Assembly: GCA_022226935.1 (NCBI GenBank)
Contig: CP092081.1
Coordinates: 404,540-468,539, forward strand
DNA: 64,000 nt
Origin: Nitrospira sp.
GTDB taxonomy: Bacteria > Nitrospirota > Nitrospiria > Nitrospirales > Nitrospiraceae
Direction: 5' to 3'
The translations under genes and the position numbers were made by a program. Each line of letters begins with the position of its first letter. The first letter of the stretch is position 1. Positions 37,080-43,303 of the stretch are shown piece after piece. The notes beneath the pieces were generated by a model that saw nothing but the letters and a program-made list of their open reading frames with translations, was not told the origin of the DNA and made no database searches.

Positions 37080-37232
37080 CCACGGTGCGGCCTCAGTGCC
37101 GGGCGGCGACAGGAGCCGCCCGGTCTCACTGGTTACCCCCTCCGTTCCATTGCGGTCGTGTGATTTCGATATTTTATTTTCGAAGCGCTGCGAGTGCGAT
37201 ACAGTGGCCCTAATACATACGGGAGGGTACGT

Positions 37233-37613
37233 ATGAGTGGAACTGCAGGGCAAGAACAGTTTTCCGTCGATTTGCGTCAGCATCCGCGGTTGCGTGTGCC
37301 GGCGCCGTTCGCCTGTTCGTTCTCTCGATTGGGTCTGGCCAAATGGCTCGGTCGCGGAGGCGAGGGGATCGGTGTCGTCTTTGATGTGTCGATGCGCGGG
37401 GCGAAGGTGATGAGCGAAGCGGGAATCCAGCGCGGCGATCGAGTGTCGGTCAGTCTTTCCCTGCCCAATCAGATCTCGCCGATGACCGTCGAGAAAGCCA
37501 CGGTGCGCTGGGAGCGCGAGCAGGTCTACGGCCTGGAGTTTGTCGATCTGTCACCGGTCGCTGAAATGCGCTTGCGAAAATTCATCACCCTGGCCACAAA
37601 GCCGGCAGCCTAA
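37233..37613 (+). CDS. PilZ-domain protein
   Basis: The 126-aa protein (ATG 37233, GGGAGGG upstream) is a lone PilZ-like barrel: RQHPRLRVP at 15-23 (RxxxR c-di-GMP motif), then VVFDVSMRGAKV in place of the D/NxSxxG motif, and ATVRWEREQVYGLEFVDLS. It probably binds cyclic di-GMP. It is the first of three PilZ genes within 2.4 kb. Confidence 0.85.
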   Translation: MSGTAGQEQFSVDLRQHPRLRVPAPFACSFSRLGLAKWLGRGGEGIGVVFDVSMRGAKVMSEAGIQRGDRVSVSLSLPNQISPMTVEKATVRWEREQVYGLEFVDLSPVAEMRLRKFITLATKPAA

Positions 37614-37739
37614 CGAGCCGGTGCGATTCGTCGTTCCTCCGACCGGTCGACCGTGGCCGGAGAGATTCGTTGCGTCCAGCGCCGGGCCACTCTTCGGAAG
37701 ACGGGTATGTGCCCGCCCCCTTTCTCCTATCCTTCGAGA

Positions 37740-37768
37740 TTGCGCTCCTCGCTCCGTTTCCCTACAAT
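37740..37768 (+). promoter_or_regulatory. Promoter for the LpxL-like acyltransferase
   Basis: TTGCGC (37740-37745) and TACAAT (37763-37768), spaced by 17 bp, place transcription start near 37775, ~10 nt before ATG 37786. This supports that start over the longer upstream frame. Confidence 0.6.
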
Positions 37769-37785
37769 GGCTGACCCGTTTGGCC

Positions 37786-38724
37786 ATGTCCAACACACAG
37801 GTAAAACATAAGCGGCGCCGGCCACGTAGTGCCTATCATCCGATGTATTGGCCTACCTGGGTCGGCATTGCGCTCTTTCGACTGCTCTCCTGGCTTCCCT
37901 ATCATGCTCAACTTGCGTTTGGGCGCCAGTGCGGGCGCATTTTGCACGGACTTCTTGCCAAGCGTCGCGACATCGTCCGTGTCAATCTGGCCCTCTGTTT
38001 CCCGGAGCAGCCGCCGGAGGAGCGTCACAGGGTCGCGCTGCGCTCGTTCGAGTCTATGGGGATGGGTGTGTTGGAAATCGCGATGGCCTGGTGGGCGAAA
38101 GATCCCCGCGCGCATTGCGAGTGCACGATCAAGGGATTGGAGCATATCCGCGAGGCGCTCCGTCAGGGGCGCGGAGTGCTGCTCTGCGGGGCGCATTTGC
38201 ATGCGGCGGAATTGGCCGGCCGGTTCATGGCGCTGGAGCAGCCGGTGGCCATCGTGTATCGACCGCAGAATGATGTCGTGGCGGATATGGTCGCGAACCG
38301 GTGCCGGAGCCGATACTATTCGGAATTGATCCAGCATCGGGATATGCGGGGCATCCTGCGCGCATTGGCCAGGAACCAGGTGGTCTGGTACGCCCCCGAC
38401 ATCGATGCCGGATCGAAGCGCAGTGTGTTCGCTCCGTTTTTCGGCGTGCCGGCCTCGTCACTCACCGCGACGTCTCGTCTGGCCAAGGTCAGCGGCGCCG
38501 CGGTCGTTCCCTGCTTTTATTATCGCCGGGCGGATGGATCCGGATATGACATCGAAGTGGGGGAAGCGCTCGATCATTTCCCTTCCGGCGAAATGATGGA
38601 CGATGCCACCCGCATCAACCGATTGATCGAAGGGGCTGTCCGTCGCGTGCCCGAACAATATTTCTGGCAGCATCGCCGGTTCAAAAGTCGTCCTCCCGGC
38701 GAGCCGCCGATTTATCGGCGATAG
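37786..38724 (+). CDS. LpxL/HtrB-family lipid A acyltransferase
   Basis: The 312-aa protein has an N-terminal hydrophobic anchor region (WPTWVGIALFRLLSWLPYH) and the family core: NLALCFPEQPPEERH, the HX4E catalytic dyad in GAHLHAAELAGR, YRPQND.. and VWYAPDID.....VFAPFFGVPA. It should transfer a secondary acyl chain to lipid A or a related lipid. A longer reading from 37540 would overlap the PilZ gene and lies upstream of the promoter. No Shine-Dalgarno is seen, in line with the short leader. Confidence 0.9.
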   Translation: MSNTQVKHKRRRPRSAYHPMYWPTWVGIALFRLLSWLPYHAQLAFGRQCGRILHGLLAKRRDIVRVNLALCFPEQPPEERHRVALRSFESMGMGVLEIAMAWWAKDPRAHCECTIKGLEHIREALRQGRGVLLCGAHLHAAELAGRFMALEQPVAIVYRPQNDVVADMVANRCRSRYYSELIQHRDMRGILRALARNQVVWYAPDIDAGSKRSVFAPFFGVPASSLTATSRLAKVSGAAVVPCFYYRRADGSGYDIEVGEALDHFPSGEMMDDATRINRLIEGAVRRVPEQYFWQHRRFKSRPPGEPPIYRR

Positions 38725-38871: not shown

Positions 38872-39249
38872 ATGGATCAAGACAAGCAGGTTTCTCCCGT
38901 TCGCATTGAGCTCAGGCAGCACCCTCGCTGCATGGTGTCCCAGACCTGCCTGCTGTCATTTGCCCCCTTCGCACCCACCCTTAGTTTCAATGGCGATGCG
39001 GAAGGTGAAGGGCTTGTCCTCAATTTGTCGCCCGGCGGCTGCAAAATCGGCAGCGACGCCGGGGTGAAGGTAGGGGACGCCATGTCATTGATTATCCTTC
39101 TCCCGGGAGAGACCTCTCCCACGGCGGTCGATCTGGCGCTGGTACGGTGGGGGAAAGATCTGTCCTTCGGAGTGGAGTTCGTGTCGATGGGCACCGCCGA
39201 ACAGGATCGATTACGCCAATATCTCGCCTCCGCCGCAGTCGCGGAGTAA
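38872..39249 (+). CDS. PilZ-domain protein
   Basis: The 125-aa protein holds RQHPRCMV (RxxxR-like start), LNLSPGGCKI (D/NxSxxG motif) and ALVRWGKDLSFGVEFVSMG. It is likely a cyclic-di-GMP receptor. It is paralogous to the gene at 37233 in layout. TATACT at 38822-38827 and TTGCCC/TATTCG at 38774-38801 are possible promoter elements. Confidence 0.85.
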   Translation: MDQDKQVSPVRIELRQHPRCMVSQTCLLSFAPFAPTLSFNGDAEGEGLVLNLSPGGCKIGSDAGVKVGDAMSLIILLPGETSPTAVDLALVRWGKDLSFGVEFVSMGTAEQDRLRQYLASAAVAE

Positions 39250-39295
39250 GGTGATTCTGAAGTGGCTGTGGTGCGCGTGACGAAGAGGAGTGCAG

Positions 39296-39628
39296 GTGGA
39301 AGAAACGAAAACCTTACGTAAGTCCCGCCGCGTTGCGGCAGATTGTCGTCTCGAGTTTGTCGGTGAAGATGAGATCGAGGGAGAGGCCGAGGTGCTGGAC
39401 CTCTCGTCGACCGGGTGCATGGCAAAATCCGAGCAGGTGATGCCGCCGGGCCTTCGCATGAAAGTCTCGGTGTTTTTGTCCGACGGACATGAGTGGCCGG
39501 TTCGCGTGGAGGAAGCCGTTGTCCGGTGGGCGCGGGGCGGAGAGTTCGGGGTCGAGTTCCTGGTGATGCGGCCTCCGCAACTCCAGCGCATCCAGCAGTT
39601 CGTGATCAAGCACCGGCCACCGGCATAA
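39296..39628 (+). CDS. PilZ-domain protein
   Basis: The 110-aa protein has RKSRRVAADC (RxxxR), DLSSTGC (DxSxxG) and AVVRWARGGEFGVEFLVM. I prefer GTG 39296 because GAGGAG (39285-39290) is then 5 nt upstream; GTG 39290 is the alternative. It lies 46 bp after the previous PilZ gene, probably in one transcript. Confidence 0.82.
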   Translation: MEETKTLRKSRRVAADCRLEFVGEDEIEGEAEVLDLSSTGCMAKSEQVMPPGLRMKVSVFLSDGHEWPVRVEEAVVRWARGGEFGVEFLVMRPPQLQRIQQFVIKHRPPA

Positions 39629-39813: not shown

Positions 39814-40593
39814 ATGATCAATTGGGTCGGACGCAAGATCATCGCGGGGTACGCCTATCTGGCGGCGCTGGGGACGCTGTTTGCGCAAGCCGTATTTGAC
39901 CTGATCGTTCCCCCCAAGCAGGGGCGTGGGGAAACCTTGCGGGTGTTGGTCAAGCAGATTCTGTTCACGGGAGTGGATGCCCTGCCGGTCACTACAATCA
40001 TCGCCCTGTTGCTGGGCATCATCATCGTGACTCAGGCCGGCACGCAGCTTCCCAGGCTCGGGGCAGGAGGGCTGGTAGGCAGTATCATCGTCGTCACGGT
40101 GATCCGCGAACTCGGGCCCTTGGTCACGGCGTTTATTGTCGTCGGGCGTTCCGGGTCGGCCATTGCGACCGAGCTCGGGAACATGTCGGTGACGCGCGAA
40201 GTCGCCGCATTGCGGCTCATGGGCATTCCCATCAGCCGGTTTGTCATCATGCCCCGTATGGTCGGCATGGTGCTCTCGATGTTGTGCCTGACGCTCTATT
40301 TCGATGTGGTGGCGGTGTTCGGAGGCTACCTCGTGGCCGATGCGCAATTGACCATTCCGCTGGATGCGTTCGCGGAGAGTGTGATCAGGGCTCTGTCCAC
40401 GACGGATGTCTTCATGACTGCGATCAAGGGCCTGGGGTTTGGATCGGCGGTCGCGGCGGTCTGTTGTTACCATGGCCTGGCCGTCCGATCCTCCTATACG
40501 GAGGTGCCGCAACACACGACTCGCGCGATGATCAATTCCTTCGTGCTCTGCCTGCTGATCGATGTCGTCGTGGCGGTGCCGTTGTATCTATGA
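39814..40593 (+). CDS. mlaE: Mla ABC transporter permease
   Basis: The 259-aa MlaE-family permease has about five or six membrane segments and the conserved core VIRELGPLVTAFIVVGRSGSAIATELGNMSVTREVAALR...GI (residues ~95-150). It forms the membrane dimer that moves phospholipid between the inner membrane and periplasmic carriers. It starts the operon mlaE-mlaF-mlaD-TPR lipoprotein; its TGA overlaps the mlaF ATG (ATGA). Confidence 0.95.
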   Translation: MINWVGRKIIAGYAYLAALGTLFAQAVFDLIVPPKQGRGETLRVLVKQILFTGVDALPVTTIIALLLGIIIVTQAGTQLPRLGAGGLVGSIIVVTVIRELGPLVTAFIVVGRSGSAIATELGNMSVTREVAALRLMGIPISRFVIMPRMVGMVLSMLCLTLYFDVVAVFGGYLVADAQLTIPLDAFAESVIRALSTTDVFMTAIKGLGFGSAVAAVCCYHGLAVRSSYTEVPQHTTRAMINSFVLCLLIDVVVAVPLYL

Positions 40594-41321
40594 GCGAGGC
40601 CGCCATCATCTTTGAGAAGGTCCGCGCGCCCATGCTCGGCGGGGATCTGTACTTGGAGATGGAGCTCAGGATTGCCGCGGGAGCATGTGTCGCCTGTGTC
40701 GGTCCGAGTCGTGCCGGGAAGAGTTTGATGGTCGAACTCGCCGCCGGACTGGTTGCTCCGCAAGCGGGACGGGTTCGTGTCTTGGGGCAGGATTGGAGCG
40801 AGGTTTCAGACGATGACCCCAGGTCCGCAAGGCTGCGAGTCGGCGTGGTGCTGCAACAGCCGGGGTTGTTGAGCAATATGACGCTGTTTAACAATGTGCT
40901 GCTGCCGCTCCGCTATCATCGCGGAGCCATGCCGGATCATCATCGCGAGCAAACGGTGATGGGACAGTTGGAGCGGTTAGGACTGGCCTCGCTGCGCGAT
41001 CGGTTCCCTGCTGAGCTCAATCAGGGGGAGGCCCGGCGGGGAGCCATTGCGCGGGCCTTGATCCTGGAGCCTGATGTCCTCCTCCTCGATGATCCCGTGG
41101 CGGGCTTGGACGCCGACATGGTATTGGGACTCAAGGCGTATATCGACGAACGGCGGGCTCAGCGTTCGCTGACAGTCCTCGCGGCGTTGCGCGCCAGTTC
41201 GCCGTTCGTCGACGCCGCCGATCGGTTGATCGTTCTTTGCGAAGGGCATGTGGAGGCAGACGGAACCCGTGATGTGGTGCGTGACATGGTTCCGCCAGCG
41301 CTGAGGCGGTATGTGGATTAG
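40590..41321 (+). CDS. mlaF: Mla ABC transporter ATPase, with degenerate catalytic motifs
   Basis: The 243-aa protein has Walker A GPSRAGKS and Q-loop LQQP. The signature motif reads LNQGE instead of LSGGx. Walker B is LLLDDP, with Asp in place of the catalytic Glu. The His of the H-loop is absent (VLAALRASSPF where SHD is expected). Family members couple ATP hydrolysis to lipid movement; these changes predict weak or altered hydrolysis. Start ATG 40590 overlaps the mlaE stop. Confidence 0.9.
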   Translation: MSEAAIIFEKVRAPMLGGDLYLEMELRIAAGACVACVGPSRAGKSLMVELAAGLVAPQAGRVRVLGQDWSEVSDDDPRSARLRVGVVLQQPGLLSNMTLFNNVLLPLRYHRGAMPDHHREQTVMGQLERLGLASLRDRFPAELNQGEARRGAIARALILEPDVLLLDDPVAGLDADMVLGLKAYIDERRAQRSLTVLAALRASSPFVDAADRLIVLCEGHVEADGTRDVVRDMVPPALRRYVD

Positions 41322-41354: not shown

Positions 41355-42347
41355 ATGATGCACTATTCTCATCGTCTGTCCAGCGGGCGGCTGGCGCAGA
41401 TCGTGGGCACGTTCGTGCTGATCCCCGCGCTGATTCTTGCCGCTGCGGGTTTTTGGATGTCGAGGGCGGAACATCTGTTCGAATCCAAGTATCAGCTCAA
41501 GGCCAGCCTGAGTAAATCTTACGGCCTCGAGCCGGGGGCGCCCGTCGTCGTCTCGGGGATTCGCATCGGGCGGGTCAAGCAGGTGGATCTCAACGATCGC
41601 GGCACGGTCGATTTGATCCTCCAGCTCTTGGTGCGGTATCAGGGCATGGTGAAAGATAATTCAGAATTGCACATCACCAAAAGCGGTGTCGTGGTCGGCC
41701 AGACACAGGTCGAGATCGGCATGGGCACCGCCAGCAGTCCGGTATTGAGCGAAGGGTCCACCATTCGTGCCGTCGAACCGAGGGACATCGGCGATCTGCT
41801 CAATGAGGTCGAGCCGGTGTTAATGGCCGTGAAGCAAACGCTGCTGCGCGTGGAAACCATTACCCAGGATATGCAGGGCGGTTTGAAGGCCGGCGGCAAG
41901 GCGCTCGAGCAGGTGGCGCTGGCCACGCAGGAGCTCCCGGCGGTCGTCGCCTCGGTGCAGCGCACGATAGCCTCCGTGGAGCAGACGGCCATGGCGCTGC
42001 CGGCCATGACCGGCTCGATCAAGCGGACGCTGAGCATGGTCGATCGGGTCACGGCTGATGTTCAGCAGACCACCGGCCGGCTGCCGGCCATTCTCGATAG
42101 CGCGCAATCCACGCTCACCAGCGTCAAGCGGCTCTCCGATTCGGTGAGCGAAGTCAGCCAAGAACTCGCTCCGGTCATTCACACGGCCGAGACCACGCTG
42201 ACCGACATGTCGATTCTGGTGCGCGGAGCCAAGCAGACGTTTCCCTTCAGCCGGTTTGCGCAGAACGCCGGGCCGGCGCCGAAGGAGCAGCCGTCGCCCT
42301 CCCGGGAAGGGACCCAGAGTTTGAGAGGAGATCAGCTGCGTCGATGA
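41355..42347 (+). CDS. mlaD: MlaD-like MCE-domain lipid transport protein
   Basis: The 330-aa protein has one N-terminal membrane anchor (IVGTFVLIPALILAAAGFWM) and an MCE domain (SYGLEPGAPVVVSGIRIGRV, ELHITKSGVVVGQTQVEIG). A long helical C-terminal part with repeated V..T/SV hydrophobic spacing (~130-300) follows, which in MCE proteins forms a coiled barrel. ATG 41355 or 41358 follows GGAGAGG. It hands lipids between MlaC and MlaFE. The final residues overlap the next gene by 4 bp. Confidence 0.92.
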   Translation: MMHYSHRLSSGRLAQIVGTFVLIPALILAAAGFWMSRAEHLFESKYQLKASLSKSYGLEPGAPVVVSGIRIGRVKQVDLNDRGTVDLILQLLVRYQGMVKDNSELHITKSGVVVGQTQVEIGMGTASSPVLSEGSTIRAVEPRDIGDLLNEVEPVLMAVKQTLLRVETITQDMQGGLKAGGKALEQVALATQELPAVVASVQRTIASVEQTAMALPAMTGSIKRTLSMVDRVTADVQQTTGRLPAILDSAQSTLTSVKRLSDSVSEVSQELAPVIHTAETTLTDMSILVRGAKQTFPFSRFAQNAGPAPKEQPSPSREGTQSLRGDQLRR

Positions 42348-43303
42348 GAGTGGCTAGACCGGGTTCAGTGGCGATATGCTGCGCCCTGGCATTGTGCCTG
42401 TTGTCGGGATGCGCGAGTCCGCCTCCGCCCGCTTCTCCGGCGCCACCACCCAGCCCCTTGGCCGACCAGGGTGAATCGTTACGGCGTCAGGGCGACCGTT
42501 CGCTGATGCGAGGCGATCTGCCGCGCGCCGGTGAAGAATATGAGGCGGCGCGGCGGATGGCGGAAAGCCTCGATGACACGAAGGGGCTCATCGGCGCACT
42601 CAACGATGTCGGGCGTGTCGCCCTCAGGCGGGGGGATGTTTCCCGAGCGGTCAGTTCGCATGAGCGAGCCGTCGTCTTAGCGCAACAACTGGGAGAGCCG
42701 GATCTTCTAATCGCCAGTCTGACTGCCTTGGCCACTGCGGAGCATCAAGCCGGGAGCATGCACCAGGCCGAACGGCGATATGCGGAGGCTCTGGAACTGG
42801 CTCAGCAGAGAGGTGATCGGTCAGCCGAAGCGACGCTTCGGAACAATCTTGGCTTAGTACGGCAGGCTCAGGGCGAGGTGGAGCAGGCCGGGCAGCTGTT
42901 CCGTCAGGCCATGGCCTTGAATCAAGCCATGGCGAACCAGGGAGCCGAAGCCAGCAATCATGTGAACCTCGGTATGTTGGCCGAAGCACGACATGATTAT
43001 GACGCGGCCGAACGGGAATATGAGCGAGCCCTGGAGTTGGACAAAACGGCGGAACAGCGGATGGAGATAGCGGCGGATCTCTTGCGGCTGGGGAAGATTG
43101 CAGATCGGCGTGGGTTTCCCGATCGGGGGCTGATCTATTCGGAACGGGCTTACCACAGCTATCTGGCGCAAGACGCATTTGCCGAGGCTCGATCGGCGTT
43201 AAGCCAGGCTGTGGCCTGCGCGAAGAAACTGGAACGGGCCGGAGACATTGCTCGGTTGGAGAAGGAGTTGACCCGTCTGACCGCGGTGCAGCCCGCGCGG
43301 TAG
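42344..43303 (+). CDS. TPR-repeat lipoprotein in the mla operon
   Basis: The 319-aa product has a lipoprotein signal (ALCLLSGC), a Pro-rich linker and about six tetratricopeptide-type repeats (e.g. LIGALNDVGRVALRRGDVSRAV, ATLRNNLGLVRQAQGEVEQA, SNHVNLGMLAEARHDYDAAE). It is the last gene of the mla operon. A lipoprotein with TPRs here suggests an outer-membrane scaffold in lipid transport, possibly in place of MlaA; this is inference. Confidence 0.87.
   Translation: MRVARPGSVAICCALALCLLSGCASPPPPASPAPPPSPLADQGESLRRQGDRSLMRGDLPRAGEEYEAARRMAESLDDTKGLIGALNDVGRVALRRGDVSRAVSSHERAVVLAQQLGEPDLLIASLTALATAEHQAGSMHQAERRYAEALELAQQRGDRSAEATLRNNLGLVRQAQGEVEQAGQLFRQAMALNQAMANQGAEASNHVNLGMLAEARHDYDAAEREYERALELDKTAEQRMEIAADLLRLGKIADRRGFPDRGLIYSERAYHSYLAQDAFAEARSALSQAVACAKKLERAGDIARLEKELTRLTAVQPAR

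Follow-up and report, generated by a model that had tools for sequence, protein, structure and literature searches.

Replaced catalytic residues in one of three Nitrospira envelope lipid transporters suggest a structural or gating nucleotide-binding subunit

The mechanism by which MCE systems lacking an ATPase transport lipids, and the direction of transport by the Mla system, are open questions. We examined a locus of Nitrospira sp. that encodes a lipid transporter whose nucleotide-binding domain (NBD) has lost residues for splitting ATP. The locus lies in a stretch of 64,000 nucleotides (contig CP092081.1 of assembly GCA_022226935.1, positions 404,540 to 468,539; hereafter the window), which is part of a one-contig genome of 4.23 Mb. 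The gene in question (40590..41321; forward strand, as are all features of the window given below) is an intact open reading frame (ORF) encoding an MlaF-like protein of 243 residues with a match to PF00005 (E 2.9e-24), here called MlaF*. Two further MlaE genes, each adjoining a canonical MlaF gene, are present in the same genome. One of three Nitrospira envelope lipid transporters contains an NBD whose ATP-splitting parts have been replaced while the remainder of the protein is retained, and our comparison of the sequences suggests that this NBD serves structure or gating instead of driving transport. A natural complex of the MlaEFD type, with the fold and the segment behind the Q-loop kept and catalytic residues lost, beside two canonical systems would allow the structural role of the NBD to be separated from its role as a motor.

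Catalytic motifs of MlaF* and their conservation

The preliminary description of the window had pointed to a signature LNQGE, a Walker B LLLDDP and a missing H-loop His that occur together next to a kept Walker A and Q-loop, and the comparison with relatives bore this out. The protein retains Walker A (GPSRAGKS, residues 38-45; 40701..40724), the Q-loop Gln89 within VVLQQP (40854..40856), the Asp of Walker B and the GLD of the D-loop, whereas the LSGG signature, the catalytic Glu and the switch His of a competent ATPase are all missing. The signature reads LNQGE (residues 143-147; 41016..41030) instead of LSGG[QEM], and Walker B reads VLLLDD (residues 163-168; 41076..41093) with Asp168 in place of the catalytic Glu, which gives the context LLLDDP compared with ...DEP in canonical proteins. 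Arg201 (41190..41192) occupies the position of the H-switch His, and the surrounding LTVLAALRAS corresponds to LTVVMVTHDL and FTAVMVSHEI in the two canonical MlaF proteins that this genome also encodes. The signature needs one refinement: Glu instead of Gln at its fifth position is an ordinary variant, and what is unusual is the Asn in place of Ser and the Gln in place of Gly. The alterations exceed what chance would give; they recur in the orthologues described below, and not one of the nine catalytic positions is changed in 60 canonical MlaF-type proteins, which comprise 22 canonical paralogues (two from the genome itself and 20 picked from the phylum list), 13 MlaE-linked NBDs from genomes of other groups and 25 Nitrospinota loci.

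Two trivial explanations were rejected. An alignment error was dismissed on the basis of the alignments with the canonical paralogues: residues 191-206 of MlaF* contain no His, so that no alternative alignment there restores the switch residue. An assembly artefact was dismissed because the locus is found in a one-contig genome and in the complete chromosome FP929003.1 of Candidatus Nitrospira defluvii (L086).

The catalytic losses are fixed in the genus. The MlaF* gene was detected in 27 of 29 same-genus genomes (E <= 1e-40, the window's own included), and Lys44, Ser45, Gly146, Glu147, Asp167, Asp168 and Arg201 are identical in all 27 sequences. Gln89 is kept in 25 and replaced by Glu in the other two, position 144 is Asn in 25 sequences and Ser or His in one each, and position 145 is Gln in 21 and His in six. 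None of the 27 matches, one of which is cut by a contig end, contains an internal stop. The median ratio of nonsynonymous to synonymous substitution rates (dN/dS) of MlaF* is 0.18 (259 of 325 genus pairs with dS < 1.5; the 66 pairs with dS >= 1.5 were not used and L029 was excluded; pairwise range 0.12-0.29), compared with 0.12 for the canonical paralogue (122 of 136 pairs). In matched genome pairs (103 of 136) the medians are 0.19 and 0.12, respectively, and dN of MlaF* is about 1.8 times that of the paralogue. Purifying selection therefore acts on the MlaF* gene, somewhat weaker than on its canonical counterpart.

The distribution of the gene within the order Nitrospirales is patchy: 42 of 196 genomes matched at E <= 1e-36 and 154 did not, for example listed members of genus g2. 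The 19 matching genomes outside the genus were all taken; adding the 27 rows of the genus and three more named loci brought the set to 49 Nitrospirales rows. Among the matches listed in a search of the phylum (395 genomes), one group scored at least 259 bits and the remainder 196 bits at most. Every one of the 49 rows carries at least three altered catalytic positions out of nine (three in two rows, four in 36, five in eight, six in one and seven in two). The signature Ser is left in two rows and the first signature Gly in none, the Walker B Glu position is occupied by Asp (40 rows), Glu (eight) or Ser (one), and Arg (36), Asn (five), Ser (five) or His (three) is found at the H-switch position. 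Walker A Lys is retained in 47 of the rows, Walker A Ser/Thr in 39 and the Q-loop Gln in 40.

Whereas the signature, Glu and His positions vary across the Nitrospirales, the segment following the Q-loop (LFNNVLLPLRYH, residues 99-110; 40884..40919) is near-invariant in the alignment from residue 102 to 110, and Asn102, Tyr109 and His110 are each present in 49 of 49 rows. Tyr109 is typical of the MlaF* group, and most canonical MlaF proteins have Glu at this position (22/22 and 8/13 canonical rows).

A separate operon type and its relatives in other phyla

MlaF* is part of an operon with a single NBD gene. It is preceded by an MlaE-type permease gene (39814..40593; PF02405, E 1.8e-62), the stop codon of which overlaps the MlaF* start, and followed by a long MlaD (41355..42347; PF02470) and a TPR lipoprotein (42344..43303; TPR_12), the start of which is overlapped by the MlaD stop. 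In the AlphaFold2 model of MlaD a transmembrane helix and the MCE domain are fairly confident, and the subsequent stretch of about 150 residues of predicted helix has mostly pLDDT values below 50. The lipoprotein was recognized by an LLSGC lipobox in the translation; when 13 loci were checked, a simple lipobox pattern turned up in this gene at 10 of them, of which two represent the same gene and L127 is doubtful. At E <= 0.001, Pfam assigns the lipoprotein TPR-type or helical-repeat families together with one weak sigma domain, with no PqiC-like family among them, and no MlaB gene was detected within the operon in the ORF list and the Pfam matches. MlaD proteins of this operon type, including those of Nitrospinota, show an N-terminal HYSHxLS-like stretch ahead of the transmembrane helix, and in many Nitrospirales they end with an SLRGDQ-like C-terminus.

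The AlphaFold2 model of MlaF* displays a complete NBD (mean pLDDT 92.5), which superimposes on E. coli MlaF with a Z-score of 29.2 and a root-mean-square deviation of 2.4 A over 240 residues (6xgz_C; 28.5 for 6xbd_I). As the MlaF of P. aeruginosa also scores 29.2, several other ABC NBDs are tied with this value and MetNI is higher (30.8), the fold alone is not specific to MlaF. With the narrow MlaF equivalog model NF008809 of NCBIfam the protein reaches 106.5 bits, below the cut-off of 441. Annotation calls for caution here, because genes of the MlaF* type match ABC ATPase models.

The gene order MlaE, MlaF*, MlaD and TPR protein recurs across Nitrospirales and in other phyla, with gaps in the survey at L066 (neither MlaD nor TPR), L118 (no MlaE) and L097 (MlaD matched as two pieces). 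Relatives were collected by scanning GTDB genome contigs with the alignment, and the patterns used were drawn from the segment behind the Q-loop rather than from the catalytic motifs. Of 212 loci found, the best 80 were kept, among which the named best matches of the MlaF* gene are Nitrospira; these 80 comprise 32 Nitrospirales loci (L077-L108), 18 from elsewhere, three from Fibrobacter and 27 others. The latter (L125, L128, L130-L133, L135-L147, L149-L156) fitted the peptide pattern and were rejected as other ABC proteins, as they have no MlaE in their own stretch and keep Glu and His, and five of them served as outgroup of the NBD tree.

According to the record titles, the 18 NBDs from other phyla belong to Nitrospinota, Desulfobacterales, Deltaproteobacteria/Thermodesulfobacteriota, Planctomycetota, Spirochaetota, one "Nitrospirae", one "Proteobacteria" and others. 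They have one (one row), two (nine) or three (eight) altered positions, mostly the first signature Gly (kept in 1/18) and the His (kept in 3/18). Tyr109 in these rows and in the three Fibrobacter rows is partly a result of selection, because the scan pattern ended in PLRY. MlaE, NBD, MlaD and TPR protein follow each other in order at nine of the 18 loci, four have the first three genes only, and the remaining five are cut short or lack one detected part. Nine of the ten genomes with other-phylum or Fibrobacter loci gave PF02405 matches; 13 other MlaE-linked NBDs were found in these ten genomes, all of them canonical, and no NBD was detected in the flanks of three further MlaE loci (L203, L205, L209). 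The Fibrobacter proteins (L126, L129, L134) share the LPLRYH segment, keep Glu and His and have one altered signature residue each. Walker A Lys is replaced (Thr, Leu, Arg) in L109:2006-2704, L123:5947-6675 and L094:5950-6699, and these NBDs may not bind ATP at all.

A search in Nitrospinota returned 30 loci, five of which are degenerate and 25 lower-scoring without any altered position. The degenerate type was detected in five of 77 genomes with at least 312 bits, compared with 245 bits at most for the rest; at least two of these five matches, and probably all, are sources of the search profile itself. In the Nitrospinota draft genome G452 (L110) no MlaE other than that of the degenerate operon was detected.

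In a tree of 69 NBD sequences, which includes the catalytic columns and contains long branches, the 21 canonical MlaF rows and the 26 degenerate Nitrospirota rows each form a clade (both 100/99), all 40 degenerate rows fall together with moderate support (93/85) outside the canonical MlaF clade, and the three Fibrobacter rows branch outside the degenerate clade. The well-supported MlaF* clade spans three families of the order. The MlaE tree likewise separates 17 canonical MlaE proteins (100/99) from the partners of the degenerate NBDs, under midpoint rooting only and with long branches; here L203, L205 and L209 were labelled canonical, L213 and L216 are misplaced 49-residue fragments, and ten duplicates among the MlaE loci had been omitted. 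As both trees show the split, the operon type is probably old and separate from canonical Mla. The finding exceeds one gene and appears to mark a separate operon type in several phyla.

A pseudo-ATPase in a lipid bridge and the alternatives

We consider it rather likely that MlaF* is a conserved pseudo-ATPase in an MCE complex of MlaE, MlaF*, long MlaD and TPR lipoprotein, where it would act as clamp or gate of a bridge that works without ATP hydrolysis. That the signature Ser and Gly, the catalytic Glu and the switch His are lost throughout the genus, compared with the 60 unchanged controls, points strongly to impaired hydrolysis, and as all losses reside in one NBD gene, both sites of a homodimer would be degenerate. 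As in MlaFEDB, the MlaE dimer would be clamped by two NBD subunits, here MlaF*, which would no longer run the hydrolysis cycle. In Nitrospira the protein probably still binds nucleotide, since Walker A, the Q-loop Gln and the Walker B Asp are kept, and in this way it may stabilize or gate MlaE. The proposal of the preliminary description that the complex may bind rather than hydrolyse ATP thus fits the genus, but it has to be narrowed in two respects: slow hydrolysis may persist, and the wider family has probably not retained nucleotide binding in all its members, since Walker A Lys or Ser or the Q-loop Gln is missing from several proteins beyond the genus. In the Nitrospirales rows, the loss of Walker A Lys (2/49), Ser/Thr (10/49) and Q-loop Gln (9/49) fits a non-catalytic role.

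Selection preserves the fold of MlaF* and the stretch adjoining the Q-loop, and in ABC transporters this part of the NBD is described to engage the membrane domains (PMC7756269 for the Q-loop). We infer that MlaF* has a structural role in holding MlaE and that nucleotide may gate it in Nitrospira. The long MlaD and the TPR lipoprotein would form the bridge to the outer membrane, and lipids may flow along it without ATP hydrolysis, either down a gradient or otherwise driven, as has been considered for PqiABC.

Several points weigh against this reading. The exchange of Glu for Asp is conservative, and degenerate ABC sites with Asp are described as seemingly capable of slow hydrolysis (PMC7756269). 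Asp168, Arg201 and Asn144 are non-random and conserved (0.90, 0.88 and 0.85 in family f1, compared with 0.68 for the median column) and might represent a rebuilt active site. Glu is kept in eight and His in three of the 49 Nitrospirales rows, the full set in none. For MceG, a canonical MCE NBD of M. tuberculosis, it is reported that Walker B mutants do not rescue the import of fatty acids or the stability of the complex, and that the import of cholesterol suffers less (PMC9947336), which indicates that the MCE complex there needs the catalytic residues. Finally, the rows from other phyla keep the signature Ser (18/18) and mostly Glu (15/18) and Walker A Lys (16/18), and a loss of hydrolysis is less sure for them.

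It is conceivable that Asp168 and Arg201 form an altered working site with Asn144 and Glu147 of the partner subunit, and that MlaF* is a slow ATPase. The genus-wide invariance of Lys44, Ser45, Asp167, Asp168, Gly146, Glu147 and Arg201, the conservation of the substitutes above the median column in family f1 and the apparent slow activity of Asp-bearing sites mentioned above agree with this idea. However, several other residues occupy the same positions outside the genus and Walker A is altered in some rows, so that no single rebuilt site is conserved. We regard such an enzyme as a serious rival, though an unlikely one. An asymmetric dimer of MlaF* and one of the canonical MlaF proteins encoded at other loci, with one working site as in the heterodimeric ABC exporters, seems improbable to us: the two other MlaE operons could supply the partner, and degenerate sites in the reviewed transporters face a canonical one (PMC7756269), but MlaF* is encoded together with an MlaE of its own by overlapping genes, the changes in Walker B/His and in the signature would damage both composite sites and the sole detected MlaE of Nitrospinota G452 is of the degenerate type, a weak argument from a draft genome. 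That MlaF* is a functionless copy on its way out was rejected and has hardly any probability left, since the altered residues, the elevated dN and the absence of a match at the cut-offs in two genus genomes and most genomes of the order are opposed by the lack of internal stops in all 27 genus matches, a dN/dS that contradicts decay, the recurrence of the operon and its well-supported clade over three families.

The pseudo-ATPase reading can be extended, more tentatively and with odds that we would put below even, to an old MCE branch across phyla (MlaE, MlaF*, long MlaD and often TPR) in which the ABC motor became a subunit that no longer hydrolyses ATP and has a structural or nucleotide-gated function, a change that would be complete in Nitrospirales and partial in the other groups. 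Lipids would cross by the bridge without hydrolysis, and the branch would be intermediate between ATP-driven Mla and the ATPase-free Pqi/Let systems. Our greater reserve stems from the signature Ser and the mostly retained Glu in the rows from other phyla.

Comparable systems and genomic neighborhood

The MlaF proteins of the MlaFEDB complexes of E. coli, Acinetobacter and P. aeruginosa share the NBD fold with MlaF* (28-29% identity, Z 26.9-29.2) and are likewise encoded next to MlaE and MlaD. Unlike these, MlaF* has an altered signature, catalytic Glu and switch His, is encoded in an operon without an MlaB gene and ends at about MlaF residue 245 of 269. Closer in composition is the MlaEFD system of Veillonella parvula, for which MlaE, MlaF and a long MlaD without MlaA and MlaC have been proposed to form a transenvelope bridge (PMC10665443); in the Nitrospira operon a TPR lipoprotein follows in addition, and the available part of that report does not discuss altered catalytic residues for V. 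parvula. The Nitrospira operon contains a permease, an NBD, a long MCE protein and a lipoprotein, as does the four-gene Mpc system of Brucella with its needle-like MCE protein and outer-membrane lipoprotein (PMC12436622). By description, however, the ABC transporter of Mpc is well conserved, its permease carries a STAS domain and its lipoprotein is PqiC-like (PMC12436622), in contrast to the degenerate NBD and the TPR-repeat lipoprotein found here.

PqiABC and LetAB are MCE lipid systems as well, and by description no ATPase domain is present in their membrane proteins PqiA and LetA (PMC12436622, PMC10897342), whereas MlaE (PF02405) and an NBD are kept in the Nitrospira operon. For PqiA the drive has been left open between passive transport, an unidentified ATPase and proton motive force (PMC10897342). 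By analogy with the bridges proposed for Veillonella MlaEFD, Brucella Mpc and PqiABC, we infer a similar envelope bridge for the MlaF* operon. Exchanges of Glu for Asp and changes in the H-loop and the signature are also reported for ABC exporters with a degenerate site such as TAP, MRP1, CFTR and TM287/288, which combine one degenerate with one canonical site (PMC7756269); in our case the single MlaF* gene bears all changes and a homodimer would have two degenerate sites. Among the papers listed in literature searches, none describes a degenerate MlaF or a Nitrospira MCE system, although such a description may exist.

Just upstream of MlaE, three genes for PilZ-domain proteins (37194..37613, 38872..39249 and 39290..39628; all PF07238) flank a gene for an LpxL/HtrB-type lipid A acyltransferase (37540..38724; PF03279 and TIGR02207 above cut-off), whose ORF was taken as listed and whose Pfam match starts at residue 97. 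This block of PilZ and acyltransferase genes is complete upstream of the operon in 14 of the 17 named loci L077-L093 as well as in L069 and L076; in the remaining three it is partly or wholly missing, and at least two of them lie near a contig end. Judged by eye, each PilZ protein of the window retains the RxxxR and [DN]xSxxG motifs, and the neighborhood of these genes raises the possibility that the lipid system of the operon is controlled by cyclic di-GMP.
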